64,000 nucleotides of DNA from positions 124,001 through 188,000 of the forward strand of contig NZ_JAMHIV010000010.1 in NCBI RefSeq assembly GCF_023897065.1, in the 5' to 3' direction. This stretch comes from Crossiella sp. SN42. Its GTDB lineage: Bacteria; Actinomycetota; Actinomycetes; Mycobacteriales; Pseudonocardiaceae. The notes under the pieces were generated by a model. It saw only the letters and a list, made by a program, of their open reading frames with translations, ran no database searches and was not told the DNA's origin. Position 1 is the stretch's first letter. Every line of letters starts with the position of its first letter. Positions 50,160 to 62,925 of this stretch are shown here, one piece after another. A program made the position numbers and the translations under genes.

Positions 50160-50276
50160 TATCGCGAGTGCGGCCGACCCTAGGGACGCTGCTCTGGTGG
50201 TGTCAAGAGCGGCTTTAGTCCGAACAGAGTCCCGTTTCGGCAGCTCATTCGCCGCGGCTTGTGTTTCGCGTTCTTA

Positions 50277-50288
50277 TCGATACTATCG
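50277..50288. promoter_or_regulatory. Possible second xylan operator immediately before the GH3 gene
   Basis: TCGATACTATCG shares ten of twelve bases with the reverse complement of the site at 46129-46140 and ends 5 bp before the GH3 ATG. Confidence 0.35.
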
Positions 50289-50293
50289 GAATC

Positions 50294-52645
50294 ATGGATC
50301 GTGTCTGGGGGATGCCGGGTCGCCCGGTGCAGGAGCGGGTGGCCTCGCTGCTCACCGAGATGACCCTGGCGGAGAAGCTGGCCCAGCTCGTCGGCGTGTG
50401 GGTGGGGGTGTCGGAGGTGGCGGCCGAGGTCGCCCCGGCCCAGCACGAGTTCGCCGAGTCCCTTCCTCCGTGGGACGAGCTGACCAAGTCCGGGCTGGGC
50501 CAGCTGACCCGCGTCTTCGGCACCGCCCCGGTCGATCCGGCGCACGCGGCCAGGGCGCTGGCCCAGACCCAGCGCCGTCTGGTCGAGAACACCCGGCTGG
50601 GCATCCCGGCGATGGCGCACGAGGAGTGCCTCTCCGGCTTCACCGCCTGGCAGGCCACCGTGTTCCCGGCGCCGCTGGCCTGGGCCGCGGCCTTCGACCC
50701 CGGCACGGTGCGGTGGATGGCCGAGGCGGTGGGCCGCTCGCTGGCCGAGGTCGGCGTGCACCAGGGCCTGGCCCCGGTGCTGGACGTGCTGCGCGATCCG
50801 CGCTGGGGCCGGGCCGAGGAGACGCTGGGGGAGGACCCGTACCTGGTCGGCGTGCTCGGCGCGGCCTACACCGGCGGCCTGGAGTCGGCCGGGATCGTGG
50901 CCACGCTCAAGCACTTCGCCGGGTACTCCGCCTCCCGCGCCGGCCGCAACCACGCCCCGGTGGGCATGGGGCCGCGCGAGTTCGCCGACGTGGTGCTGCC
51001 GCCGTTCGAGCTGGCCCTGCGGGTGGGCGGGGCGCGGTCGGTGATGCACTCCTACGCCGAGGTCGACGGCGTGCCCCCGGCGGCCGATCCGGCGCTGCTG
51101 ACCGGGCTGCTGCGGGAGGCCTGGAGCTTCCAGGGCGTGGTGGTGGCCGACTACTTCGGCATCTCCTTCCTGGAGACCGCGCACGGCGTGGCCGGTTCCC
51201 CCGGCGAGGCGGCCGCGCTCGCGCTGGCCGCGGGGGTGGACGTGGAGCTGCCGAGCGTGCGCTGCTACGGCGAGCCGCTGGCCGAGCTGGTGCGTTCCGG
51301 CGTGGTGCCGGAGGAGCTGGTGGACCGCGCGGTGACCAGGGTGCTGCGGCAGAAGTGCGAGCTGGGCCTGCTGGACGAGGGCTGGGACCCCGAGCCGCCC
51401 GCGCTGCGCCAGGACCGGCCGGTGGACCTGGACCCGCCGGAGCTGCGCACGCTGGCCCGCACCCTGGCCGAGCGCTCGATCGTGTTGCTGGCCAACGACT
51501 CCGGCCTGCTGCCGCTGCGCGAGCCAGGCCGCCTGGCGGTGGTCGGGCCGTGCGCGGAGGAGGTGCTTTCGCTGCTGGGCTGCTACTCCTTCCCCAGCCA
51601 CGTCGGCATCCAGCACCCCGAGGTCCCGCTGGGCATCGAGGTGCCCACCCTGCTGGACGCGCTGCGCGCCGAGTTCCCGGACACCGAGATCCGTTGTGCC
51701 CCAGGCTGTGCGGTCACCGGCGAGGACCGCTCCGGCATCCCGGCCGCGGCCGCGCTCGCCGACGCCGCCGAGGTGTGCGTGCTGGCCCTCGGCGACCGCT
51801 CCGGCCTGTTCGGCCGCGGCACCTCCGGCGAGGGCTGCGACGCCGCCGACCTGGCCCTGCCCGGGGTGCAGGCCGAGCTGCTGGCCGCGGTGCTGGACAC
51901 CGGGACGCCGGTGGTGCTGGTCCTGCTGGCCGGCCGTCCCTACGCCCTCGGCGGGGACGCCGAGCGGGCCGCGGCCGTGGTGCAGGCCTTCTTCCCAGGG
52001 CAGGAGGGCGCGGGTGCGGTCGCGGGGGTGCTCAGCGGCCGGGTGAACCCCTCGGGCAAGCTGCCCGCGCAGGTCCCGCACGGCCCCGGCGGGCAGCCCG
52101 CGACCTACCTGCACCCGCCGCTGGGCGGCCCGGGATCGGTCAGCTCGGTGGACCCGGCCCCGCGGTTCCCGTTCGGCCACGGCCTGTCCTACACCAGCTT
52201 CGAGTACCTGGAGGGCCACGCGCCGGCGGAACTGCCTGCCGATGGCGAGATCGAGGTGTCCTGCCTGCTGCGCAACACCGGCGGCCTGCCTGGCGCGGAG
52301 GTCGTCCAGCTGTATCTGCACGACCCGGTGGCCTCGGTGACCCGGCCGGTGCGCCAGCTGGCCGGGTTCGCCCGGGTGCAGCTGGATCCCGGCGAGTCGG
52401 TGCGGGTCCGCTTCCGGCTGCACGCCGACCGGATCGCCTTCACCGGCCGCGACGGCCGCCGGGTGGTCGAGCCCGGCGAGCTGCACCTGCTGCTGGGCTC
52501 CTCCAGCGCCGACATCCGCTGGCGGCACACGGTGCGGGTCACCGGCGAGCCCCGCTACCCCGGCCCGGACCGGGTGCTGCTGACCCCGGTGTGGCTGGAC
52601 GAGGTGGAGGCCACCGGCCTGCCGGTCAGCCACCGGCGCGACTGA
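50294..52645 (+). CDS. bxlA: GH3 beta-xylosidase, BxlA type
   Basis: The 783-residue enzyme has no signal peptide and is therefore cytoplasmic. It has the GH3 N-terminal barrel with nucleophile D286 in GVVVADYFGI, the substrate-side stretches KHFAGYSASRAGRNHAP and EETLGEDPYLVG, the second alpha/beta domain (ERSIVLLANDSGLLPL, TSGEGCDAADLALPG) and a C-terminal fibronectin-like domain (RQLAGFARVQLDPGES). The ADYF form of the nucleophile motif is typical of BxlA-type xylosidases that split imported xylobiose. It is divergent from bxlEFG. The ATG at 50294 is preferred over an upstream GTG at 50261 because the family starts at the PVQERVASLL helix. The last 20 bp overlap the convergent esterase gene. 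Confidence 0.9.
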   Translation: MDRVWGMPGRPVQERVASLLTEMTLAEKLAQLVGVWVGVSEVAAEVAPAQHEFAESLPPWDELTKSGLGQLTRVFGTAPVDPAHAARALAQTQRRLVENTRLGIPAMAHEECLSGFTAWQATVFPAPLAWAAAFDPGTVRWMAEAVGRSLAEVGVHQGLAPVLDVLRDPRWGRAEETLGEDPYLVGVLGAAYTGGLESAGIVATLKHFAGYSASRAGRNHAPVGMGPREFADVVLPPFELALRVGGARSVMHSYAEVDGVPPAADPALLTGLLREAWSFQGVVVADYFGISFLETAHGVAGSPGEAAALALAAGVDVELPSVRCYGEPLAELVRSGVVPEELVDRAVTRVLRQKCELGLLDEGWDPEPPALRQDRPVDLDPPELRTLARTLAERSIVLLANDSGLLPLREPGRLAVVGPCAEEVLSLLGCYSFPSHVGIQHPEVPLGIEVPTLLDALRAEFPDTEIRCAPGCAVTGEDRSGIPAAAALADAAEVCVLALGDRSGLFGRGTSGEGCDAADLALPGVQAELLAAVLDTGTPVVLVLLAGRPYALGGDAERAAAVVQAFFPGQEGAGAVAGVLSGRVNPSGKLPAQVPHGPGGQPATYLHPPLGGPGSVSSVDPAPRFPFGHGLSYTSFEYLEGHAPAELPADGEIEVSCLLRNTGGLPGAEVVQLYLHDPVASVTRPVRQLAGFARVQLDPGESVRVRFRLHADRIAFTGRDGRRVVEPGELHLLLGSSSADIRWRHTVRVTGEPRYPGPDRVLLTPVWLDEVEATGLPVSHRRD

Positions 52646-53360
52646 CCCCCGCGGCGGCCCGGCCCAGTGCCGCGGCCACCGCGGGCCGCCAGCGGGCGGC
52701 CATCTTGCGGAAGCCGGAGTCGACCGGGTGCACCCCGTCGTTGGTGTCCGCGCCCGGGTCGAAGCCGGTCCACTGGTCCACCACCACGATCCGCGAGCGC
52801 GCGGTGGACTTCCCGGCCGCCCAGCCCGGGATCGCGCGGTTGAGCGCCACCACCCGTTGCGCGCAGTCCGGGCAGCCGCCGGGCCGCATCGGGATGATCT
52901 GCGCGACCAGCACGGTCATCGCCGGGTTGCTCGCCCGCATCTGATCGACGAGCTTCGAGTACGCCGCCAGGATGGCCGTGGGGCTCAGCGCGCTCCACAC
53001 GTCGTTGGTGCCCAGGTGCATCAGCACGATGTCCGGCCGGGCGGCGGACAGCCAGGGCGGCAACAGGTTCTGGTTGGCGATCCCGGTGGCCAGGTAGCCG
53101 CCGTGGCCCTCGTGGTCGCCGTCGTGCGGCACCGCGCAGCCGCCACCGCGCTGGGTGCCCACGAAGTCGATGTTCGTGTGCCCGCCGCGGCGCAGCTGGT
53201 CCCACAGGTAGGCGCGCCAGCAGCCGGGACCGGCGGTGATCGAGTCGCCCAGCGGCATGATCCGCACTGGCGCGGCCGCGGCCGGAGCGGGGGAGGCCGG
53301 GACCGTGCCCAGCAGGGCGGTCACCGCGCCCAGCACGGTCAGCACCCGGCGAACCAGCAT
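52626..53360 (-). CDS. Secreted SGNH esterase, CE3 acetylxylan-esterase type
   Basis: The 244-residue protein has a signal peptide ending near residue 30 and then RIMPLGDSITAGPGCWRAYLW, with nucleophile S40. The SGNH blocks continue with GTND (119-120 region) and the D208/H211 pair in NDGVHP. The GDSIT-Cys-Trp-Arg arrangement and the IDFVGTQ strand match carbohydrate esterase family 3, which removes acetyl groups from xylan. A perfect CebR-type operator lies 24 bp upstream, so it is tied to the cellulose regulon although it sits among xylan genes. The stop lies within the end of the convergent GH3 gene. Confidence 0.88.
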   Translation of the reverse strand: MLVRRVLTVLGAVTALLGTVPASPAPAAAAPVRIMPLGDSITAGPGCWRAYLWDQLRRGGHTNIDFVGTQRGGGCAVPHDGDHEGHGGYLATGIANQNLLPPWLSAARPDIVLMHLGTNDVWSALSPTAILAAYSKLVDQMRASNPAMTVLVAQIIPMRPGGCPDCAQRVVALNRAIPGWAAGKSTARSRIVVVDQWTGFDPGADTNDGVHPVDSGFRKMAARWRPAVAAALGRAAAGVSRAGG

Positions 53361-53476: not shown

Positions 53477-54667
53477 TCACCAGGTGACGGGCAGCCGGTA
53501 GACCCCGTAGACCGAGCCGTCGTGCTTGAACGGGATCTCCGCCACCGGTGCCGCCAGCCGCAGTGTGGGGATGCGCCGGTACAGCGTGCCGTAGACCACC
53601 TGGAGCTCCAGCCGGGCCAGGGTCTGCCCGAGGCACTGGTGCACGCCGAACCCGAAGGCCACGTGCCGCCGCGGGTTGCGCCGCAGGTCCAGGCGGTCCG
53701 GGTCGGGGAAGACCGAGGGGTCGCGGTTGCCGAGGTCCCCGGCCAGGATGACGCCCTCGCCCGCGCGGATGGTCTGCCCGGCGACCTCGAGGTCCGCGGT
53801 CACCGCGCGGCGGCGGCCGTTGTGCGTGATGTGCAGGTACCGCAACAGTTCCTCCACCGCGGAAGCGATGAGCTCCGGGTCCTCGGACGAGCGCAGCAGG
53901 GCGAGCTGGCCGGGGTGCTCCAGCAGCGCCAGGGTGCCCAGGGCGATCATGTTCGCGGTGGTCTCGTGCCCGGCGACCAGCATGAGCACGCCCATCTGCC
54001 CGGCCTCGCCCCTGGTCAGCTCGCCGCGGTGGATCCGCTCGGTCAGACCGGAGAGCAGGTCGTCACCAGGGCTGGCCAGCTTCGCGCCGATCAGCTCGTC
54101 CAGGTAGCGGAACAGCTCGCCACCGGCCGCGGCCCGCTCGGCCGCCCCGGCCTCGCGGTTGATCAGGGTGTTGCTGTGCCGCTGGAAGAAGTCGTGGTCG
54201 GTGTAGGGCACGCCGAGCAGGTCGCAGATCACCAGCGAGGGCACCGGCAGCGCGAACGCCCGCACCAGGTCCACCGGCTTCGGACCGGTCAGCAGGGCGT
54301 CGATGTGCTCGTCCACGATCCGCTGCACCACCGGCCGCATGGCCTCGATCCGCTTGACCGCGAACGGCGCGGTCACCATCCGGCGCAGACGGGCGTGCTC
54401 CGGATCGTCCTTGAGGATGAAGCTGATGCCCGCGTCGGCGCTGATCGGCACCCCGGCCGGGAAGCCGGGGCTGGCCGGGTCGGAGCTGAGCCGGGGATCG
54501 GCCAGCAGCGTGCGCTGCTCGGCGTGCCGGGTCACCAGCCAGGGCGTGCTGCCGTCGGCCAGCCGGACCCTGGTCAGCGGGGTGTGCTCGCGCAGCGCCC
54601 GGAGGGCGGGCGGCGGGTCGAACGGGCAGCCCTCGGCCCTGGCGGCGGGGTAGGGGAGCGTGGTCAC
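53477..54667 (-). CDS. Cytochrome P450, last gene of the TetR operon
   Basis: The 396-residue bacterial class I P450 has the I-helix AGHETTANM, the ExxR motif in VEELLRY, and the heme loop FGFGVHQCLGQ with ligand C345. It lacks a membrane anchor and depends on a ferredoxin; a ferredoxin gene directly precedes it and overlaps it by 4 bp (GTGA). The sequence resembles CYP105/CYP107-type hydroxylases in general build, but the substrate cannot be inferred. An upstream frame extension is rejected because the GTG at 54667 is coupled to the ferredoxin stop. Confidence 0.93.
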   Translation of the reverse strand: MTTLPYPAARAEGCPFDPPPALRALREHTPLTRVRLADGSTPWLVTRHAEQRTLLADPRLSSDPASPGFPAGVPISADAGISFILKDDPEHARLRRMVTAPFAVKRIEAMRPVVQRIVDEHIDALLTGPKPVDLVRAFALPVPSLVICDLLGVPYTDHDFFQRHSNTLINREAGAAERAAAGGELFRYLDELIGAKLASPGDDLLSGLTERIHRGELTRGEAGQMGVLMLVAGHETTANMIALGTLALLEHPGQLALLRSSEDPELIASAVEELLRYLHITHNGRRRAVTADLEVAGQTIRAGEGVILAGDLGNRDPSVFPDPDRLDLRRNPRRHVAFGFGVHQCLGQTLARLELQVVYGTLYRRIPTLRLAAPVAEIPFKHDGSVYGVYRLPVTW

Positions 54668-54861
54668 CGCTCGTGCACCGCGATCGCCGCGGCCGGGCAC
54701 ACCGCGGCGGCCTCGCGGATCGTCTCGTGCAGCTCCGCGGGCGGCTCCTCGGCCAGCAGCACGACGATGCCGTCGTCCTCCCGCTGGTCGAACACCTCCG
54801 GCGCGAGCAGCACGCAGGTGCCCGCGCCGCAGCACCGGTCCTGGTCCACGGTGATCTTCAT
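54664..54861 (-). CDS. Small [3Fe-4S] ferredoxin, P450 partner
   Basis: The 65-residue ferredoxin begins MKITVDQDRCCGAGTC and ends AAAVCPAAAIAVHER. Cysteines at the first and third positions of the CCGAGTC loop plus the CP cysteine give the three-ligand pattern of single-cluster [3Fe-4S] ferredoxins that feed actinomycete P450s. It is translationally coupled on both sides: its ATG overlaps the TetR stop (ATGA) and its stop overlaps the P450 start (GTGA). It could serve both P450 enzymes of the operon. Confidence 0.92.
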   Translation of the reverse strand: MKITVDQDRCCGAGTCVLLAPEVFDQREDDGIVVLLAEEPPAELHETIREAAAVCPAAAIAVHER

Positions 54862-55508
54862 GGTCGTTCCTCCTCGGTGGTCGTGACCGGGGCCAGCCAC
54901 AGCCCGACCAGCGCGTCGATCAGGCCGGTGCCGGCTTCGTGCCAGCTGGGGACGTGGGTGTGCTCGGCGAGGGCGAGCTCGCGTTCGGCCATCATGTGCA
55001 CCATCAGGTGCCGGAGCATGGCGCCGCGATCGGCCCTGACCTCGCCGGGCAGGTCGGGCAGGCTGCGGTGCAGCCCGTCCACGATCCGGTTGAGGCTGAG
55101 GGAGGTCAGCGCCTCCTCCTCCATGATCGGGCGCAGCGACGGGTCGGTCATCACCTGGGCGGCGAAGCGGGCGAACCAGGTCGGGCTGCCCTGCGAGGCC
55201 AGGTGGTCGGTAAGCGGGCGGACCAGGCAGGTGATCCAGTCCCGGACCTCCGTGCTCTCCGCGACCTCGGCGACCATGGGTCCGCGCCGCTGCTCCATCG
55301 CGGTGGCGTGCCTGCGGATGACCGCCCGGACCAGGTCGGCCTTGGTGCCGAAGTGGTAGCCGACCACGGTGTTGTTGCCCTGCCCCGCGGCCTCGGCGAC
55401 CTGCCGGTTGGACACCGCGAACACGCCGTGCTCGGCGAAGAGCCGTTCCGCGGCGGTGAGGATCTGTTCCCTGGTGGCCTGGGCCCGCGCCGCTCTGCTG
55501 GTGGTCAT
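54858..55508 (-). CDS. TetR-family repressor within the P450 operon
   Basis: The 216-residue regulator has a TetR helix-turn-helix near its N terminus (TREQILTAAERLFAEHGVFAVSNRQVAEAAGQGNNTVVGYHFGTKADL in pieces, residues 11-57) and a ligand-binding helical domain. It is the second gene of the operon P450-TetR-ferredoxin-P450, overlapping both neighbours by 4 bp. A regulator made from inside the operon it controls suggests negative feedback. A palindrome AAGTCA-N6-TGACTT upstream of the first gene is its probable operator. Confidence 0.9.
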   Translation of the reverse strand: MTTSRAARAQATREQILTAAERLFAEHGVFAVSNRQVAEAAGQGNNTVVGYHFGTKADLVRAVIRRHATAMEQRRGPMVAEVAESTEVRDWITCLVRPLTDHLASQGSPTWFARFAAQVMTDPSLRPIMEEEALTSLSLNRIVDGLHRSLPDLPGEVRADRGAMLRHLMVHMMAERELALAEHTHVPSWHEAGTGLIDALVGLWLAPVTTTEEERP

Positions 55509-56716
55509 AGCCGCCATCGAACCGGAAGCTCCCGCAGTCCGCCCACCGCGAGTCCCTCGACCTTGCGCAGCTCGGCCACTGGCACGGCCAGCTCCAGGGA
55601 GGGCAGCCTGCGCAGCAGCACCTCCAGGGTCACCTGCAGCTCGGTGCGGGCCAGCGGCTGGCCCAGGCAGGCGTGCGCGCCGGCGCCGAAGGCCAGGTGC
55701 GGGTTGGGGCTGCGGCCCAGGTCCAGCTCGGAGGCGGCGGTGAAAACGCGCTCGTCCCGGTTGGCCGCGGCCATGCTGCACACCGCGGTGGTGCCGCTGG
55801 GCAGGGTGGTGCCGGCGATCTCGATGTCCTCGGTGAGGTAGCGCGCCATGCCGAAGCCGGCGTTGGCGTCCAGCCGCAGCGTCTCCTCCACCGCGGTGCG
55901 CACCAGCGCGGGCTCGGCCAGCAGCCGCTCCCAGTGCCGCCGGTCGGCCAGCAGCATCGCGGTCATCTTGACGATCATGTTCGCGGTGGTCTCGTGCCCG
56001 GCGATCAACAGGCCCATGCCGGTGGCGATCAGCGCCGGATCGGACATCGGCGCGCCGTCCGGGCCGGTCTCCGCGATGAGGGCGCTGAGCAGGTCATCGC
56101 CGGGCTCGGCGCGCTTGGCCGTGATGTGCGTGGCCATGTACCCGGCGAACTCCGCCTGGGCCAGGTCCATCTCGGCCTGGGTGTAGCGGGTCATGCTCAG
56201 CAGCGCGTCCGACCAGTGCGCGAAGCGGTCCCGGTCGGCATCCGGCACGCCGAGCAGGTCGCAGATCACCCACACCGGCAGCGGGAAGCCCAGCGCCGCC
56301 TTGAGATCCGCGGGCGAGCCCTTGGCCACCATGTCGTCCACCAGCTGCTCGGCCATCGCCTCGATGGCGGGCCGCAGCGCGTTCATCCGCTTGGCGGTGA
56401 ACCACTTGCCGATCATGCGCCGCCAGCGCAGGTGTCCCTCGCCGTGCTGGGGGAGCACAGTGGACATCTCGCTGTTGAACAGCCCGCCGGACTCGGTGTC
56501 GGCGACGCGGGCCGCGTTGTCCGCCGCGGTCGGCCTGGTGAACCTGGGGTCGGCCAGCACGCTCTTGACGTCCTCGTAGCGGGTGACCAGCGTGGCCTCG
56601 TCGCCGCTGGCCAGTCGCACCTTGGCCACCGGGCAGCGGTTCTGGTAGTCGGCCCACTCGGCGGGTGGCTCCAGGGCGGCGTCGGTCTCGAACGGGAAGC
56701 GGGGCAGCTGGGTCAT
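55505..56716 (-). CDS. Cytochrome P450, first gene of the TetR operon
   Basis: The 403-residue soluble P450 has the I-helix IAGHETTANM, ExxR in VEETLRL, and the heme loop FGAGAHACLGQ with ligand C350. WRRMIGKWFTAKRMNALRP is a typical C-helix region for the CYP105-like actinomycete group. The substrate is unknown. It is the promoter-proximal gene, and its start codon lies 28 bp from the candidate TetR operator. The two P450s of the operon are clearly different in sequence and so are not a recent duplication. Confidence 0.93.
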   Translation of the reverse strand: MTQLPRFPFETDAALEPPAEWADYQNRCPVAKVRLASGDEATLVTRYEDVKSVLADPRFTRPTAADNAARVADTESGGLFNSEMSTVLPQHGEGHLRWRRMIGKWFTAKRMNALRPAIEAMAEQLVDDMVAKGSPADLKAALGFPLPVWVICDLLGVPDADRDRFAHWSDALLSMTRYTQAEMDLAQAEFAGYMATHITAKRAEPGDDLLSALIAETGPDGAPMSDPALIATGMGLLIAGHETTANMIVKMTAMLLADRRHWERLLAEPALVRTAVEETLRLDANAGFGMARYLTEDIEIAGTTLPSGTTAVCSMAAANRDERVFTAASELDLGRSPNPHLAFGAGAHACLGQPLARTELQVTLEVLLRRLPSLELAVPVAELRKVEGLAVGGLRELPVRWRL

Positions 56717-56740: not shown

Positions 56741-56766
56741 AAGTAAGTCAATCAGCTGACTTAACT
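56741..56766. promoter_or_regulatory. Candidate TetR operator before the P450 operon
   Basis: AAGTCA (56745-56750) and TGACTT (56757-56762) are inverted around 6 bp, with further partial symmetry outside (AAGT and AACTT). The left arm overlaps the stop codon of the upstream anti-sigma gene, so the P450 promoter is embedded in the end of that gene. Confidence 0.55.
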
Positions 56767-57146
56767 TGGCGGGGTGGGCGCGGGGGCACGAGCCAGGTGG
56801 CCACCAGCGCCCCGGCCAGAAACCCGGCGAGCACTGCGGTCAAGACTCCGGCGGGCACTGCGGTCACCAGCCCGGCGGTGCCGAACCTGGCCCGCCGGAC
56901 CTTGCGCGCCGCGCGGACCGGCCGGGCTTCCGGCGGCGCGGGACCGGCCGGATCGAGCAGTTCGGCCGCCTGCTCCCTGGCCACCAAGGCGAGCAGGCCG
57001 GGCAGCCCGGCGGACCCGGCGACCGCGCGGGCGCACGGCAGGCAGGCGTGCAGGTGTCCTTCGTAGTCCCGGCGCTCGGCGTGCGAGAGCGCGCCCAGCA
57101 GGTAGGCGGCGTCCCAGTCCCGGTACGGGTCGGCTGGTGGCGTCAC
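56748..57146 (-). CDS. Zinc-finger anti-sigma factor with one membrane segment
   Basis: The 132-residue protein begins with the anti-sigma zinc-finger pattern: DAAYLLGALSHAERRDYEGHLHACLPCARA has the H-x3-C-x2-C ligands. A variable linker follows, then one membrane segment (about residues 93-117, ending WLVPP) and a short basic tail outside. Such proteins hold an ECF sigma factor at the membrane until a signal releases it. The GTG start overlaps the sigma-factor stop by 4 bp (GTGA). The extracytoplasmic part is only about ten residues, so the signal may be sensed by the cytoplasmic zinc site or by a partner, possibly the membrane oxidoreductase two genes upstream. Confidence 0.88.
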   Translation of the reverse strand: MTPPADPYRDWDAAYLLGALSHAERRDYEGHLHACLPCARAVAGSAGLPGLLALVAREQAAELLDPAGPAPPEARPVRAARKVRRARFGTAGLVTAVPAGVLTAVLAGFLAGALVATWLVPPRPPRQVKSAD

Positions 57147-57652
57147 CGGCTGGTCAGCCCCTTCTCCCGGAGGGCGCGGCGCAACGCGCGCAGGCCGTAG
57201 TGCAGGCGGGAGCGCACGGTGCCCTGCGGCACCGCCAGGTCCACCGCGAGCTCGGCCACCGAGTGCCCGAGGTAGAACGCGCGGATGATGACCGTGCGGT
57301 GCTCGGCGGTCAGCTGGGTCAGCACCTCGGTGATCACCCAGGCGTCCAGCACCGAGTCGGTCTGGTCGGGGCGCGGCGGGTCGGGCACCTTGGCCGCGCG
57401 CACCTCCCGCCGCGAGTGCGCGCTGCGGCGCTCGTCGATGACCACGTTGCGCGCCACCCGGAACAGCCAGGCCCGCGCCGCGGACTCGCCCTGGTCCAGC
57501 ACCGCGGGGCTGCGCCACAGCCGCAGCAGGCTCTCCTGCACGACGTCCTGGGAGAGCTGTTCGTCGCCGGTCAGCCGCAGCGCGAAGCGCCACAGCGCGG
57601 GCGCGTGGCGGTCGTGCACCAGGCGGAGCAGCTCCGCCGCCGTGGTGCTCAC
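57143..57652 (-). CDS. ECF-type RNA polymerase sigma factor
   Basis: The 169-residue sigma factor has region 2 (HAPALWRFALRLTGDEQLSQDVVQESLLRLWR, in pieces, with the AWLFRVARNVVID -10-reading segment) and region 4 (LTAEHRTVIIRAFYLGHSVAELAVDLAVPQGTVRSRLHYGL). The pattern is that of the SigK/RpoE-like actinomycete groups. Its GTG start is 1 bp beyond the stop of the membrane oxidoreductase gene and its stop overlaps the anti-sigma start, so all are in one operon. It probably activates the operon's own promoter; a candidate ECF promoter is seen at 60487-60511. Confidence 0.92.
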   Translation of the reverse strand: MSTTAAELLRLVHDRHAPALWRFALRLTGDEQLSQDVVQESLLRLWRSPAVLDQGESAARAWLFRVARNVVIDERRSAHSRREVRAAKVPDPPRPDQTDSVLDAWVITEVLTQLTAEHRTVIIRAFYLGHSVAELAVDLAVPQGTVRSRLHYGLRALRRALREKGLTSR

Positions 57653-57653
57653 C

Positions 57654-58922
57654 TCAGGAGTCCCAGATCGCGCCGTAGGCCGGAATCCCTTGGGCCTCAA
57701 GGGACTCGACCACATGCCAGGTGGTCTTCCGGTTGGAGATGCAGATGACCGCCTCCGCGCCGGACTCCCGGTGCGCGCGCAGCGCCAGCTCGACCAGGTC
57801 GGGCTTGCCGTCCCGGTCGGTGTCCCAGATGATCGCCTCCGGCTGCACGGACTCGATCTCGGCCACCAGCGCCTCGCCGTAGGTGCGCACCGGGTTCCTG
57901 GTCGACCACACCAGGCGGGCCGGGGTGTCCCCGGCGAGCAGGTGCGGCAGGCACGGCCCGATCCCGCTGCCGGTGGCCACCCACACCACGCCGCGGAAGA
58001 GCCGGTCGATGTTGCCCACGCCCGCGGTCGGGATGCCCTTGACCCACAGGTGCGTGGGTCTGTCGTCCACCAGCGCGCCGGTCCAGTCACCCGCGCGGGA
58101 GATGGTGAGCCGGAAGCCGGAGCGGCCGGGCGCGGGCACGTTGGCGAAGGAATGCCACTCCAGCAACGGGTTCCGGCTCACCGCGGTCGACGACCCGGCG
58201 AACGGGGTGACGCCGTAGTCGAAGGCCACCAGGGCCACGTGCCGGGACGGCGTGCTGATCCGCACCGGCACCCGGCGCAGCCGCAGCCAGGGCAGCGCGA
58301 CGCTGGTCACCACCACCAGCAGGGCCCAGAACGGCGCGGAGCCGAGGAAGTCCCGGCCCTGCGCCTGCGCCAGCGCGGCCGCCTGCGCGGTGAACAGCAC
58401 CAGCAGCGCCCAGCCGCCGAAGCGGTGGCAGCGCTCGAACAGGTCGTGCCGGGCGGCGCGCAGCTTCGGCAGCGCGAACACCACCATGGCGACCAGCAGC
58501 ACCGCGATGGCCCAGGTGCAGGCCAGCAGCGCCACCGGGCCGCCGCGAGTGGTGATCACCCCGGCCAGCACGGCGAACCAGGCCGTGCCGGCGATCGCGG
58601 CGCCGACGTGCAGGCCGCCGAAGTGGTAGACCTTGCCCAGCGTCCACCGCACCCGCAGCGGCCAGTGCTTCGGCGCGCTGGTGGCCAGCCGGAACAGCAG
58701 GTTGATCACGTGCTGCTGGCGGATCAGCACGGCCAGCAGCAGGTTGCCGAGCACCAGCCACAGCAGCACATCGAGGTCGGCGCGCCAGTCGGTGACCAGG
58801 GCCAGCACCAGGTTGGCCAGCAACACCGCGGCCAGCAGCCGGTTGTGGTGGGTGAAGGGCCTGCGCCGCAGCCGGGCGCGCCAGCTCGCCGGGGCGGGGG
58901 CCAGGACCGGGGCGGCGCTCAC
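57654..58922 (-). CDS. Membrane oxidoreductase with FNR-type NAD(P)-binding domain
   Basis: The 422-residue protein has about six membrane helices in its first 225 residues, with histidines placed at or near helix ends (QQHVINLLF, YHFGGLHVGAA, ERCHRFGGW) that could bind heme. The C-terminal half resembles a ferredoxin-reductase/ferric-reductase NAD-binding domain: VVWVATGSGIGPCLPHLLAG is the nucleotide loop and ICISNRKTTWHVVESL follows. The GTG start overlaps the stop of the adenylation gene (GTGA). In some fungi (TmpA/TmpB-type proteins, from memory) a comparable membrane flavoprotein is joined to an adenylation domain, so this looks like a split bacterial counterpart. The substrate is unknown. 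Confidence 0.8.
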   Translation of the reverse strand: MSAAPVLAPAPASWRARLRRRPFTHHNRLLAAVLLANLVLALVTDWRADLDVLLWLVLGNLLLAVLIRQQHVINLLFRLATSAPKHWPLRVRWTLGKVYHFGGLHVGAAIAGTAWFAVLAGVITTRGGPVALLACTWAIAVLLVAMVVFALPKLRAARHDLFERCHRFGGWALLVLFTAQAAALAQAQGRDFLGSAPFWALLVVVTSVALPWLRLRRVPVRISTPSRHVALVAFDYGVTPFAGSSTAVSRNPLLEWHSFANVPAPGRSGFRLTISRAGDWTGALVDDRPTHLWVKGIPTAGVGNIDRLFRGVVWVATGSGIGPCLPHLLAGDTPARLVWSTRNPVRTYGEALVAEIESVQPEAIIWDTDRDGKPDLVELALRAHRESGAEAVICISNRKTTWHVVESLEAQGIPAYGAIWDS

Positions 58923-60448
58923 GCGACGGTCTCCGTCCGCTGGCCGGGCAGCCGGGACAGCAGCGCCCGCCGGTCCACCTTGCCGCGTTCGGTCAGCGGC
59001 AGCCGGTCCACCGGCACGATCAGCGAGGGCACGCAGTAGTAGGGCAGCTGGGCGGCCACCGCGCGGCGGACCGCCTCCGGCACGGCGGTGGCCGGGCTGA
59101 CGAACCCGACCAGCCCGCCCTGGTGCAGCACCGCGCTGGCCCGCCGGCAGCCGGGCGCTCGTTCCAGCGCCGCGGTGACCGCGTCCAGCTCGACCCGGAA
59201 ACCCTTGACCTTCACCTGGTCGTCGGTGCGCCCGTGGTGTTCCAGCTGGCCGTCGGCGGTCCAGCGGACCAGGTCGCGGGTGCGGAACATCAGGCCACCG
59301 CCCAGGAACGGGTCGGGGCGGTAGCGCTGCGCGGTGAGGTCGGCGTTGCCGAGGTAGCCGCCGGTGACGCAGGCGCCACCGGCCCACATCTCGCCGACCT
59401 CGCCGATCCGGCACGGGTTGAGCGCCTCGTCGAGCACGTAGACGGTGGTGTTGGGCACCGGGCGGCCGATGGTCAGCCTGCCGGTGGCCGGGTCGTAGCG
59501 CTGCACGGTGTTGACGATGGTGACCTCGGTGGGGCCGCAGGCGTTGTGGAAGACCGCGGTGCGCGACCAGGCGCGGGCCAGCGCGGGCGGGCAGCGTTCA
59601 CCGGCCACCGCGACCACCCGCACCTGCGGGCAGTCCCTCGGGTCCACAGTGGACAGCACGCCGGGGGTGGCGATCAGCGCGGTCGCGGTGCGGGCCGCCG
59701 CGGTGGGGTCGCCGCCGCGCACCAGCACGCAGCCGCCGTTGGCCAGCGTGCCCAGCACCTCCCACACGGCCATGTCGAAGGCGATGTTGAGCAGCTGCGG
59801 CACCCGGTCGCCGGGGCCGACGCCGAGCGAGCCCGGCGCGGTGAGCAGGACGTTGCACAGGTTCGCGTGCGTGACCCTGACCCCGTTGGGCCTGCCGGTG
59901 GTGCCCGAGGTGAAGATCACCACCGCGGTCTCGCCGCCGTCGGCGGGCAGGGCCGCGGTCGCGGCGGGGTGGTCGTCGATCGCGATCACCGTGCCCAGGC
60001 CCGCCGGCAGCAGTCCTCGGTGTGCCGTGGTGGTGAGCACGACCTCGATGCCGGCCACCGCGGCGATGTGCCGCAGGTGCGGCGGCGGGGTGAGCCGGAT
60101 GTCCTGCGGCACATAGGCCGCACCGGCTTTGAGCACCGCGAGCATGCCCACCACCATGGCCACCGACCTGGTCAGGAACAGCCCGACGTGCGCGCCGGGG
60201 CGCACCCCGTGCTCGACGAGCAACCGGGCCAGCGCGGTGGCCCTGCGGTCCAGCTCGGCGTAGGTCACCGACTCGCCGAGGTGCTCCACGGCCGGGGCCT
60301 GCGGGCAGGCCGCGGCCTGTGCCTGGACCGCGTGGTGGACGCGGGTGAACGGGACTGGTGTGCGTGGCCCCCAGCCGAAGCGGTCGAAGAGCACGCGCTC
60401 GTGCGGGGGCAGGCCGCGCAGGGCAGGGGATTCGACGATCGGGGTCAC
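58919..60448 (-). CDS. Free-standing amino-acid adenylation (AMP-binding) enzyme
   Basis: The 509-residue protein has the ANL-family core motifs: A3 IFTSGTTGRPNGV (Asn in place of the usual Lys), A4 NIAFDMAVWEV with the Asp that grips an alpha-amino group, A5 NACGPTEVTI, a modified A7 FRTRDLVRW, A8 GRTDDQVKVKGFRVE and A10 LTERGKVDRRAL with the catalytic Lys. There is no carrier (PCP) or condensation domain, so the activated acyl group must be passed to another partner. It is the first gene of a four-gene coupled operon with a membrane oxidoreductase, ECF sigma and anti-sigma. GTG 60448 has AGGA six bp upstream; a longer frame begins at 60478. Confidence 0.88.
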   Translation of the reverse strand: MTPIVESPALRGLPPHERVLFDRFGWGPRTPVPFTRVHHAVQAQAAACPQAPAVEHLGESVTYAELDRRATALARLLVEHGVRPGAHVGLFLTRSVAMVVGMLAVLKAGAAYVPQDIRLTPPPHLRHIAAVAGIEVVLTTTAHRGLLPAGLGTVIAIDDHPAATAALPADGGETAVVIFTSGTTGRPNGVRVTHANLCNVLLTAPGSLGVGPGDRVPQLLNIAFDMAVWEVLGTLANGGCVLVRGGDPTAAARTATALIATPGVLSTVDPRDCPQVRVVAVAGERCPPALARAWSRTAVFHNACGPTEVTIVNTVQRYDPATGRLTIGRPVPNTTVYVLDEALNPCRIGEVGEMWAGGACVTGGYLGNADLTAQRYRPDPFLGGGLMFRTRDLVRWTADGQLEHHGRTDDQVKVKGFRVELDAVTAALERAPGCRRASAVLHQGGLVGFVSPATAVPEAVRRAVAAQLPYYCVPSLIVPVDRLPLTERGKVDRRALLSRLPGQRTETVA

Positions 60449-60486
60449 TCCGGATCCTTTCGCCAGGCCGGTGGTCACCCCGTTCG

Positions 60487-60511
60487 AACGAGACAGGTCG
60501 GGTGAATGTTC
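60487..60511 (-). promoter_or_regulatory. Candidate ECF-sigma promoter of the adenylation operon
   Basis: On the minus strand GAAC (60511-60508) and CGTT (60490-60487) are separated by 17 nt, matching the usual GAAC-N16/17-CGT form of ECF promoters. Self-activation by the sigma factor of this operon is a reasonable guess; the motif is short and could arise by chance. Confidence 0.28.
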
Positions 60512-60561
60512 AACTAAATCTGCGGAAAACGTTGCCGCGTGGAGAAATTAGCCCGGTCGTG

Positions 60562-60621: not shown

Positions 60622-61632
60622 TCAGGAGCCGGGGCGGCGGCGGTGCGCGCTGGCCCGTTCGGTCAGCCGCGGCGGCAGCAGGGTCAGCGCGGGCGGCCGG
60701 ACCCCGGCCAGGCGGGCGGCGAGCAGGTCCACGGCCCTGGCGCCGAGCTCCTCGGCGGGCAGGTGCACCGAGGTCAGCCGCGGCGAGGCCCGCTCGGCCA
60801 GCTCGTCCGGGCAGATGGCCACCACCGAAAGGTCGGCCGGCACGTCGCGGCCGAGCTCGCGCAGGCAGGTCAGCACCGAGGGCAGCGCGCCCTCGTTGTG
60901 CACCACCAGCGCGGTCAGCCGGGGCTGCTCCTGCAACAGGGCGGCCACCGTGCGCCGCACCGAGGGCAGCTGCTCGTCGGTGGCCCTGGTCAGCACCGAG
61001 ACGCCGCGGCGGATCGCGGCCGCGGTGAAGCCTGCCATGGTGCGGTGCGCGTAACCGGCGTCGCGGTGGTAGACCAGCTGGGGCGAGCCGAGCAGGGCCA
61101 CGCTGTGGTGCCCGAGGTCGGCCAGGTGGTCCAGGCACAGCGCGCCCGCCGCGGTGAAGTCCAGGTCCACGCAGGTCAGTCCGGTGGGGTCGACCGGGAA
61201 GCCGATCAGCACCGAGGGGCGGTCCATCGCGCGCAGCACCGGCGCCCTGGCATCGCGCAGCTCCACGTCCATCACCACCAGGCCGTCCACGCCGCTGCGC
61301 TGCACCGCCTGGCGCAGGCCCTCCGCGCCGGTGTCCGCGGTGAGCAGCAGCACGTCGTTGCCGTGCCGGTGCGCGGCGGTGGTCACCGCGCTGACGAAGC
61401 GCATCAGCACCGGCAGGTGGGTGCCCGCGCGCAGCGGCGCGACCAGGCCCAGCACCCCGGTCCGGCGCGCCGCGCCGCGAGGCGGCTGCTGGGTGAGGTA
61501 GCCGAGGGCGCGGGCGCTCTCCTCCACCTTGGCCTTGGTGGCCGGGCTGATCGCGCGCTTGCCGGAGAGCACGTAGGACACCGTGCTCGGGGCGACGCCG
61601 GCCCGCCGAGCCACGTCCGCGATGGTGGCCAA
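60622..61632 (-). CDS. LacI-family repressor, probably for the adjacent pectate lyases
   Basis: The 336-residue regulator has a LacI helix-turn-helix (ATIADVARRAGVAPSTVSYVLSG) and hinge (LGYLTQQPPRGAARR), then an effector domain (LTCVDLDFTAAGALCLDHLADLGH, SVVAICPDELAERASPRLTSVHLP). It starts with TTG at 61632 behind AGGAGG. It is divergent from the PL1 pectate lyase gene across a 333-bp gap rich in inverted repeats, so control of pectin genes is the simplest reading. It is clearly different from the CebR- and BxlR-like proteins in this window. Confidence 0.88.
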   Translation of the reverse strand: MATIADVARRAGVAPSTVSYVLSGKRAISPATKAKVEESARALGYLTQQPPRGAARRTGVLGLVAPLRAGTHLPVLMRFVSAVTTAAHRHGNDVLLLTADTGAEGLRQAVQRSGVDGLVVMDVELRDARAPVLRAMDRPSVLIGFPVDPTGLTCVDLDFTAAGALCLDHLADLGHHSVALLGSPQLVYHRDAGYAHRTMAGFTAAAIRRGVSVLTRATDEQLPSVRRTVAALLQEQPRLTALVVHNEGALPSVLTCLRELGRDVPADLSVVAICPDELAERASPRLTSVHLPAEELGARAVDLLAARLAGVRPPALTLLPPRLTERASAHRRRPGS

Positions 61633-61689
61633 CCCGCCCTCCTCGTCACCGCCGTTGGTGCTCTGGGACGGTACGGCCGGGCAGGGGGT

Positions 61690-61744
61690 CCGGCTAGGGC
61701 CAACCGTCTTGCCAACGCCCTCCGGCAAGACGGTTTCCAGCCGG
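61690..61744. repeat. Long inverted repeat with internal loop upstream of PL1 gene
   Basis: AACCGTCTTGCC (61702-61713) pairs exactly with GGCAAGACGGTT (61724-61735) around a 10-nt loop. Outside small unpaired steps, CCGGCT (61690-61695) pairs with AGCCGG (61739-61744). Between divergent genes this is more likely an operator or insulating hairpin than an ordinary terminator. Confidence 0.55.
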
Positions 61745-61751
61745 CCGGAGC

Positions 61752-61786
61752 CATTTCGACAATTCGATTCGAAGGCAATCGAAATG
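61752..61786. promoter_or_regulatory. Nested TCGAA palindromes, candidate operator of the PL1 gene
   Basis: CATTTCGA (61752-61759) and TCGAAATG (61779-61786) are exact inverted arms 19 bp apart, and TTCGATTCGAA (61763-61773) is a second palindrome inside them. They lie about 40 bp before the -35 box of the candidate promoter. Confidence 0.5.
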
Positions 61787-61825
61787 AGTCATATACGTGA
61801 TGAGAGAAATCGGCGAATCGGCATG

Positions 61826-61854
61826 TTGACAGCTGGTAAATGCCTCATTACGCT
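61826..61854 (+). promoter_or_regulatory. Sigma-70-type promoter of the PL1 pectate lyase gene
   Basis: TTGACA (61826-61831) and TACGCT (61849-61854) are separated by 17 bp. A transcript from here would have a leader of about 100 nt before the ATG at 61966. Confidence 0.55.
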
Positions 61855-61965
61855 GCCGGTTGCAGCATTTTTTGTCATTATCATTTACCGCCGCTGATTC
61901 TCATTCACCGCAGTGGCCGCTGTCTTTTTCCGCTGGCGGTGGCCACCGTTCACGAGAGGAAGCAG

Positions 61966-62925
61966 ATGTCCCGGACATCCTTACTGAACCGGCGGGCTCC
62001 CTGGTCTGCCGCGCTGGTCGTCGCGCTGGCCGTCACCGGCGTGGCAGCGGCCGCGCCTGCCGCCTCGGCCGCACCGTTCGACCTGGCGGGCTGGGCCACC
62101 CAGGGCGGCGGCACCACCGGCGGTGGCGGCGCCACCCCGGTCACCGTCAGCACCGCGGCCGCCTTCACCGCCGCGGTCAAGGCCAGCGGTCCCGCGGTGG
62201 TCCGCGTCACCGGCACCATCGCGCTGTCCGGCATGGCCGCGGTCAGCTCGGACAAGACCATCATCGGGGTCGGCTCCGGCGCCACCATCACCGGGCATGG
62301 CCTCAACATCTCCAGGTCCGCCAACGTGATCGTGCGCAACCTGAACTTCCGCAACTGGGCCGATGACGCGATCAACGTGCAGTACTCCACCCGGGTGTGG
62401 ATCGACCACAACAGCTTCGCCAGTGGCAAGGACGGCGCGGTCGACGTCAAGCGCGCCTCCGACCTGGTCACCGTGTCCTGGAACAAGTTCTCCAGCCACG
62501 ACAAGACGATGCTGCTCGGGCACAGCGACGACAACGGCGGCGAGGACCGGGGCAAGCTCCGGGTGACCTACCACCACAACTTCTTCGACGGCACCGGGCA
62601 GCGGCACCCCAGGGTGCGCTTCGGCAACCCGGTGCACGTCTACAACAACTACTACGGCGGCGTCACCGGTTACGGCGTGGCGTCCACCAAGGAAGGCGGC
62701 GTGCTGGTCGAAGGCAATTTCTTCGAAAACACCGAGGACCCGTTCCACCTGGGTGAGGGCAGTTCTCCCGCGGGCACGCTGGTGGCCAGGAACAACCATT
62801 TCGTCGGCTCCGGCTCCGGGCAGGCCGGCGGCAGTGTGAAGAGCATTCCCTATTCGTATCAGCTGGACCGCGCCAGTGACGTGAAGACGATCGTCCGGAA
62901 CGGGGCAGGCCCAGGGCGCATCTGA
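61966..62925 (+). CDS. Secreted PL1 pectate lyase
   Basis: The 319-residue protein has a signal peptide cleaved after AASA (about residue 35) and a right-handed beta-helix of polysaccharide lyase family 1. Family blocks are present: VWIDHNSFASGKDGAVDVKR, in pieces, with the calcium-site acids; VSWNKFSSHDKTMLLGHSD; and RVTYHHNFFDG followed by GQRHPRVRFG, which contains the conserved Arg-Pro-Arg catalytic arginine region. It should cleave polygalacturonate by calcium-dependent beta elimination outside the cell. The ATG follows GAGAGGAAGC. A strong hairpin follows the stop, so the next pectate lyase gene may have its own promoter or rely on read-through. Confidence 0.94.
   Translation: MSRTSLLNRRAPWSAALVVALAVTGVAAAAPAASAAPFDLAGWATQGGGTTGGGGATPVTVSTAAAFTAAVKASGPAVVRVTGTIALSGMAAVSSDKTIIGVGSGATITGHGLNISRSANVIVRNLNFRNWADDAINVQYSTRVWIDHNSFASGKDGAVDVKRASDLVTVSWNKFSSHDKTMLLGHSDDNGGEDRGKLRVTYHHNFFDGTGQRHPRVRFGNPVHVYNNYYGGVTGYGVASTKEGGVLVEGNFFENTEDPFHLGEGSSPAGTLVARNNHFVGSGSGQAGGSVKSIPYSYQLDRASDVKTIVRNGAGPGRI

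Follow-up and report, generated by a model that had tools for sequence, protein, structure and literature searches.

A possible bacterial split form of the fungal TmpL/TmpB proteins, encoded with a SigL/RslA-like pair in one operon of Crossiella sp. SN42

Introduction

What might a stand-alone adenylation protein be doing in an actinomycete when its gene is coupled to those of a membrane flavoreductase-like protein, a sigma factor and an anti-sigma factor? The question is raised by a 64,000-nucleotide stretch of Crossiella sp. SN42 (contig NZ_JAMHIV010000010.1, positions 124,001 to 188,000; hereafter the window), in which four minus-strand genes span 60448-56748 as read from the open reading frames (ORFs): A, a nonribosomal peptide synthetase (NRPS)-type adenylation protein; M, a membrane protein; S, a SigL-like extracytoplasmic function (ECF) sigma factor; and Z, an RslA-like anti-sigma factor. 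A and M overlap by GTGA, as do S and Z, and M and S are one base apart, just as a first reading of the window from the letters alone (the sequence-only reading) had described the four coupled genes. We find that A and M form a conserved pair, and we tentatively read the operon as a bacterial split form of the fungal TmpL/TmpB proteins, a small redox-switched biosynthetic unit acting on an amino acid at the membrane, an interpretation to which we would give a little under an even chance.

TmpL of Alternaria brassicicola and Aspergillus fumigatus combines an AMP-binding domain, six transmembrane (TM) helices and a FAD/NAD(P) domain that binds flavin experimentally, with GSGIGP as its NAD(P) motif (PMC2766074). 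TmpB of A. nidulans follows the same plan, with D238, W242, C307, G309, I315 and K495 as key residues, and an enoyl-CoA (coenzyme A) hydratase/isomerase gene adjoins tmpB. Both proteins are required for normal sporulation, and TmpL for virulence in two fungi; what reaction they perform had not been settled in the papers of 2009 and 2016.

Results

Linkage of A and M

Of 239 relatives confirmed in named genomes, the best 80 were compared as named loci, with linkage counted from tblastn; simple ORF calling mis-called several high-GC genes. A lay immediately upstream of M on the same strand at 80/80 loci, an arrangement that is far beyond chance. At 12 of these loci, all from Bacteroidota, the two were fused in a single open frame of 1005-1019 amino acids (aa), and at the Actinomycetota and Chloroflexota loci among the 80 they were always two genes. 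The sequence-only reading had left it to co-occurrence and natural fusions to show whether the two proteins belong together: adjacency proved to be anything but rare, and fusions exist. It had also proposed modelling the pair. In a model of the fused L064 protein both parts folded well (pLDDT 88.3), but the pTM was 0.58 and we claim no interface.

A third gene, which the sequence-only reading missed along with the restriction of the sigma pair to one clade, is conserved beside the pair. An enoyl-CoA hydratase gene lies downstream of M at 77/80 loci (within 400 nucleotides at 76 and at 419 in one) and was confirmed as PF00378 in the two proteins scanned; it is missing from Crossiella L011 and from Kribbella L037 and L038. 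It is likewise absent next to the window operon and at the other same-genus places examined, and a search of the host genome for an orthologue of the Lentzea hydratase gave 19 matches, the best 40% identical and another 42%, of which none was accepted. Across lineages, ORF clustering revealed no other gene that recurs beside A and M. Distance matrices over 77 loci correlated at 0.95 for A and M, 0.78 for A and the hydratase and 0.76 for M and the hydratase, with none of 999 permutations as high; part of this correlation is expected because shared descent alone would produce some.

We also sampled genomes by kinship (60), phylum (396) and class (394), in overlapping sets that each include the window's genome, with up to four candidates scored per genome in the phylum and class samples. 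M was present in 9, 3 and 9 of these genomes, respectively. Of the 17 distinct M places found, 16 have A next to M and 11 have the hydratase; the places lacking the hydratase were five from the same genus, two of them with only 1.5 kb of flank, and G048 (L132), where M stands without A on a 5.8 kb contig. The cassette is sparse, yet tightly linked where it is present.

A few further observations concern these loci. A DUF6733 protein (PF20507 in L064, 7105-7833) follows the hydratase there and at other Bacteroidota loci, with relatives clustered in 14 loci. In Fischerella and Calothrix, M relatives without a nearby A adjoin an HlyD-like gene: the distant relatives on cyanobacterial plasmids (L174 13313-14560, L175 7831-9078) are followed by an HlyD-like membrane-fusion protein, which is another partnership. 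L022 (JOAA01000037.1) carries the label Rhodococcus rhodnii. With a genome of 12.4 Mb and an M that falls among those of Amycolatopsis and Kribbella, the record is possibly mislabelled.

The adenylation protein A

A scored 340.3 bits against TIGR01733 (cut-off 317.4) and 219.7 bits against PF00501, and its Pfam and NCBIfam matches were AMP-binding models only, with no carrier domain among them. The amino-binding Asp (D225) and the A10 Lys (K490), which the sequence-only reading had picked out in this carrier-less protein, are both present and are conserved in 81/81 aligned sequences. The alignment comprised the 80 named loci and the window, with rows from Actinomycetota, Chloroflexota, Bacteroidota and Pseudomonadota that are weighted to close relatives. 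At pocket positions 235, 236, 239, 299, 301, 322, 330, 331 and 517, which are PheA numbers assigned by motif, the window protein reads D M W A A A I V K and the family D M W A A (A/S/C/G) I V K, the exceptions among the 81 being L at 236 (1), I at 299 (7) and I at 331 (10).

The core motifs of the family are odd. PNG replaces PKG and CGPTE replaces YGPTE in 81/81 proteins, and RTRD replaces RTGD in 78/81, so that the window A has neither of the ordinary NRPS core motifs PKG and YGPTE. The PKG lysine and the YGPTE tyrosine help to hold ATP. As a control we chose 20 adenylation domains from the host's 74 AMP-binding places, mostly in long NRPS-like frames: the PKG lysine was kept in 20/20 and the YGPTE tyrosine in 16/16 readable domains (four had no match), and RTGD was matched in 0/20, so the RTRD change has no control.

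These altered motifs, which lie near the nucleotide, fit a different reading of the operon in which A performs little or no acyl transfer. M would then drain or sense reducing power, A would be a nucleotide- or amino-acid-binding regulator of M, and the SigL/RslA-like pair would induce the module under thiol stress. The occurrence of M without a nearby A in some bacteria and the redox-sensing type of the controlling S/Z pair agree with such a redox-homeostasis role, as do the stronger oxidative burst and H2O2 sensitivity reported for fungal TmpL mutants. A mere regulator, however, would have no need of a strictly conserved pocket, D225 and K490; the hydratase downstream at 77/80 loci points to acyl-CoA chemistry; and A. 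nidulans conidia deleted for tmpB were reported not to be H2O2-sensitive. On this evidence we consider the homeostasis role unlikely.

Alternatively, A could load the carrier of an NRPS encoded elsewhere in the genome, with M tailoring the amino acid. In the host, AMP-binding domains were matched 74 times and carrier domains 105 times, many of them within very long frames, and stand-alone adenylation domains are able to act in trans, as Bushley and Turgeon note (PMC2823734). Yet 0 of the genome's 105 PF00550 matches falls on the operon's own 235 kb contig, only the hydratase recurs beside the pair across lineages (by ORF clustering, the other loci not having been scanned for carriers), and fusion of A to M in 12 loci and a pocket that is nearly constant over four phyla also argue against a trans-acting accessory, leaving it quite improbable.

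The membrane protein M

Pfam gave no match for M at cut-off and one unrelated match of 11.7 bits, and NCBIfam gave none. An AlphaFold2 model from 56 sequences (pLDDT 89.5, pTM 0.85) places predicted TM helices ahead of a beta domain and an NAD domain. By our reading of the model helices, M has six TM helices and, after them, an FNR-type FAD/NAD(P) domain with predicted cofactor binding, in keeping with the six-helix protein and NAD-binding tail of the sequence-only reading. The NAD(P) motif ATGSGIGP was invariant in 56/56 aligned sequences, and EWHSFAN and a C-terminal AIWDS were also strongly conserved; at the place of the FAD motif M reads RLTIS, an exact match neither to RLHFD of TmpL nor to the RXYS/T consensus. 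Foldseek retrieved SpNOX as the best match (8qt6, E 5.2e-11, TM 0.59), and also DUOX1, NOX2 and NOX5.

Four histidines of the TM part are invariant: H100 and H105 in TM3, and H159 and H166 at the start of TM5, and H105, H159 and H166 are kept even in two cyanobacterial relatives at 29% identity. Within the pairs the spacing is 5 and 7 residues, and the alignment contains no conserved histidine further out that could form a second, outer heme pair. By our reading of helix limits and hydropathy, the four would lie near one helix end, on what appears to be the cytosolic side. NADPH oxidase (NOX) proteins have histidine pairs about 13 residues apart (HX13H) in TM3 and TM5; given spacings of 5 and 7, M probably holds one heme at most.

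That M is a trans-membrane ferric reductase or an NADPH oxidase, sharing its operon with an A gene to which it is unrelated, is very unlikely. The predicted fold of M is that of the NOX/ferric reductase superfamily, and a cyanobacterial homologue weakly matches Ferric_reduct (18.7 bits, below the cut-off of 28). The histidines of M, however, are too closely spaced, sit near the start of TM3/TM5 on the side read as cytosolic, and have no outer HX13H partners; moreover, adjacency at 80/80 loci and the A-M fusions contradict an unrelated A. Histidine spacing and conserved coupling led us to reject an ordinary ferric reductase or NOX, the outcome that the sequence-only reading had set against its own proposal.

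The sigma/anti-sigma pair and its promoter

S is closest in the PDB to SigL of Mycobacterium tuberculosis (Table 1) and scored 201.4 bits against the NCBIfam subfamily NF007227, for which the cut-off is 202. RslA was the sole PDB match of Z (4e-12). In RslA, oxidation leads to loss of zinc and formation of a disulfide within the HXXXCXXC motif (PMC2877774), and Z carries this motif as HLHACLPC. In several genera Z reads short, at 97-147 aa from the match start.

The sequence upstream of A at 60512-60488 is TGAACATTCACCCGACCTGTCTCGT. The element TGAAC-N17-CGT was present 61-84 bases before the estimated start of A in 26/26 evaluable named loci with S, and in the window; of the 27 named loci with S, L014 was too short to evaluate. 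Within 300 bases of A it was found at 0/53 loci without S, the presence of S being judged within fetched DNA that is short in a few loci. The two boxes contain 2.00 and 1.87 bits per column, compared with 0.60 in the spacer and 0.60-0.90 in the flanks, and the 3' box varies in L017, L031 and L033.

Only one actinobacterial clade of the 80 loci has the sigma pair. All 28 rows with S fall in a single 32-row clade of the M tree, whose other four rows (L034, L037, L038, L045) have neither S nor the element. L034 sits beside L032 (support 99/76) and L037/L038 beside L022 (100/93), and L032 and L022 have S as well as the element. Because loci lacking both sit beside loci having both, relatedness alone does not explain the association.

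In the host, exact TGAAC-N14-TCTCGT occurs twice and the full TGTCTCGT box at the A promoter only; allowing one mismatch gave 44 matches, where the reversed control gave 34, and the element alone is therefore not specific. Full-box sites were read by eye over 17 genomes, with that of L034 not among them: one or two were found in 10/12 genomes with S (none in L031 and L033) and none in 5/5 genomes without S, where the shorter pattern also occurred 0-3 times. We take the consensus of SigL itself to resemble TGAAC-N17-CGT, for which we found no supporting paper.

These data make it likely that A is preceded by a sigma-factor promoter, and the promoter association, with the element at 27/27 loci with S (window included) and 0/53 without, supports the assignment of S and Z to the operon, as had been supposed from the sequence. 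That the pair is a chance neighbour of A and M is highly improbable, and we rejected it, for although S was not found in 53/80 fetched loci, element and S vary together and are absent together, even within the clade, and the window genes abut or overlap.

Some SigL-like paralogues were noted in passing. In the host, the match at G000:C56:161940-162582 is preceded, at a distance of about 130 bases, by a copy of the element with one mismatch, which suggests the same element type, and the match at G000:C7:190474-190962 contains a TGA stop, a possible pseudogene or assembly error. In L022 and L139 the A-M-hydratase operon stands between two SigL/RslA-like pairs, of which the upstream one is more diverged (46-48% to S).

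Features of the locus

The host genome (G000) is 9.72 Mb, and the window lies within contig C2 (234,867 bases). Crossiella sp. S99.2 is the nearest named relative, with 94% identity in M and a sister position in the M tree (support 100/100). For A, the GTG at 60448 is the preferred start; the alternative GTG at 60478 is possible but would lie only 9 bases from the promoter element.

Table 1. Coordinates of the operon genes and the predicted promoter within the window
Feature	Position	Strand	Details
A: stand-alone NRPS-type adenylation domain, without carrier domain	58919..60448	minus	509 aa; TIGR01733, PF00501
M: six-TM membrane flavoreductase-like protein with FAD/NAD(P)-type domain (ATGSGIGP)	57654..58922	minus	422 aa
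S: SigL-like ECF sigma factor	57143..57652	minus	169 aa; PDB 6dv9 SigL 4.8e-49
Z: RslA-like anti-sigma factor with HLHACLPC zinc motif and C-terminal hydrophobic stretch	56748..57146	minus	132 aa; 3hug_B
Predicted ECF-type promoter TGAAC-N17-CGT, 3' box TGTCTCGT	60488..60512	minus	39 bases before A start codon

Z is followed at 53477-56716 (minus strand) by a cytochrome P450, a TetR regulator and a second P450, as assigned by Pfam; the first P450 begins 31 bases past the Z stop, and its co-transcription with the operon is conceivable. The wider surroundings (50261-53360 and 60622-62925) encode a GH3 glycosidase, a GDSL esterase, a LacI regulator and a pectate lyase, a carbohydrate-degradation neighbourhood with no evident link to the operon.

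Two phage-related explanations were discarded. Anti-phage defence was rejected after PADLOC returned no match for A, M and the Lentzea hydratase, and phage origin after none of the 43 viral_contigs stretches that matched a pattern was confirmed. Among phage records there was one match, an M-like frame of 55.5% identity at 2480-3781 of L176 (MT838715.1), an unverified 4.9 kb faecal scaffold that is probably bacterial DNA.

Discussion

Gene coupling, linkage, fusions, the predicted fold and the promoter association were established here by computation. On the split TmpL/TmpB interpretation that we favor, A would adenylate a bulky alpha-amino acid, probably aromatic or otherwise hydrophobic, and, having no carrier domain, would hand the acyl group to CoA or directly to its membrane partner. 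M would draw electrons from NAD(P)H via FAD, and perhaps via one heme on the cytosolic side, and perform a redox step on the activated acyl group, after which, in most relatives, the enoyl-CoA hydratase may hydrate or isomerise the product. In Crossiella, another hydratase may be borrowed, or the pathway may stop earlier. Oxidation of the zinc-thiol site of Z would free S, which would then transcribe the operon, S itself included, from the TGAAC-N17-CGT promoter.

Several observations weigh against this interpretation. The PKG lysine and YGPTE tyrosine are lost in 81/81 proteins, which makes normal ATP use by A uncertain. The Crossiella and two Kribbella loci without a hydratase indicate that the hydratase is not needed everywhere, and M occurs without a nearby A at L132, on Pantoea piersonii plasmids (where the M-type protein has 48% identity to M) and on cyanobacterial plasmids. 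Kinship of A and M to the fungal family appears from published motifs and architecture, not from alignment. On the regulatory side, Z has Pro7 where RslA has an N-terminal histidine, presumably its ligand His25, and HxxxCxxC is found in 14/15 Z proteins including that of the window, L016 being without the exact motif as read. Finally, the host encodes other SigL-like sigma factors at 46-47% identity, which might recognise the promoter element as well; S is therefore not necessarily its sole user.

A broader version of the split TmpL/TmpB interpretation, which we think would probably fail in some part, is that an ancient A-M-hydratase cassette of bacteria and fungi produces a single conserved signal, redox or developmental, derived from an amino acid. 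It would have a remodelled nucleotide site, direct acyl hand-over to a membrane reductase without a carrier and, in actinomycetes, a private SigL/RslA-type oxidation switch. Among open-licence PMC papers we found no report of such a direct, carrier-free transfer from an adenylation domain to a membrane reductase.

The combination of an adenylation domain with a membrane flavoreductase is already known from fungi. As far as our searches of open-licence PMC full texts show, the bacterial operon and its hydratase partner are new, and so are its occurrence in four phyla, the fused genes of Bacteroidota, the changes in the core motifs of A and promoter control of the SigL/RslA type. The sequence-only reading knew of no described bacterial system of this form, and our searches found none either, although bacterial adenylation domains of the ChNPS12 clade were already published: Bushley and Turgeon (2010) placed stand-alone domains of Hahella and Salinispora there (PMC2823734), with no mention of a membrane partner in the text of that paper covered here.

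With two separate genes, a clean promoter and a sigma factor next to them, bacteria open TmpL/TmpB-type chemistry to experiment: each protein can be purified on its own, the operon can be induced through S, and metabolites can be compared. That the pocket hardly varies across four phyla suggests a common substrate; what is learned in one bacterium should then apply widely, and the operon thus offers material for learning what the enzymes behind fungal development proteins make.

Comparison with known systems

SpNOX, NOX proteins and ferric reductases share the overall fold predicted for M. Unlike them, M lacks the two-heme histidine spacing and a Pfam match at cut-off and has its own EWHSFAN and AIWDS motifs. 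Like SigL and RslA of M. tuberculosis, their nearest relatives in the PDB, S and Z form a pair with an HxxxCxxC zinc motif in the anti-sigma factor, but here the pair sits in an A-M operon and Z has no aligned N-terminal histidine. TmpA of A. nidulans, a membrane flavoprotein without an adenylation domain, resembles the Pantoea plasmid M that has no nearby A, whereas the window M is bound to A by gene overlap.

The closest counterparts are TmpL and TmpB (the ChNPS12 family), in which, as the sequence-only reading noted, fungi unite both parts. As published, they share with A and M an adenylation domain without a thiolation or condensation domain, six TM helices, a FAD/NAD(P) domain and the GSGIGP motif. 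The published TmpB pocket residues D238, W242, I315 and K495 fit the bacterial A; the position of C307 holds C in 12/81 bacterial proteins and otherwise A, S or G. Spacing along D-W-322-324-330-K517 is 4, 65, 2, 6 and 180 in TmpB, 4, 74, 2, 6 and 179-181 in six bacterial A proteins and 4, 83, 2, 6 and 187 in PheA, the second interval differing in all three. The Bacteroidota fusions nearly match TmpL/TmpB (989-1025 aa) in length. Unlike the fungal proteins, the window has A and M as two genes, its clade has a SigL/RslA-like pair with a promoter, and Crossiella is without the hydratase. Since tmpB also has a hydratase neighbour, the usual bacterial operon comprises the same three parts, of which the window holds two, and the A-M-hydratase cassette appears to be shared across kingdoms.

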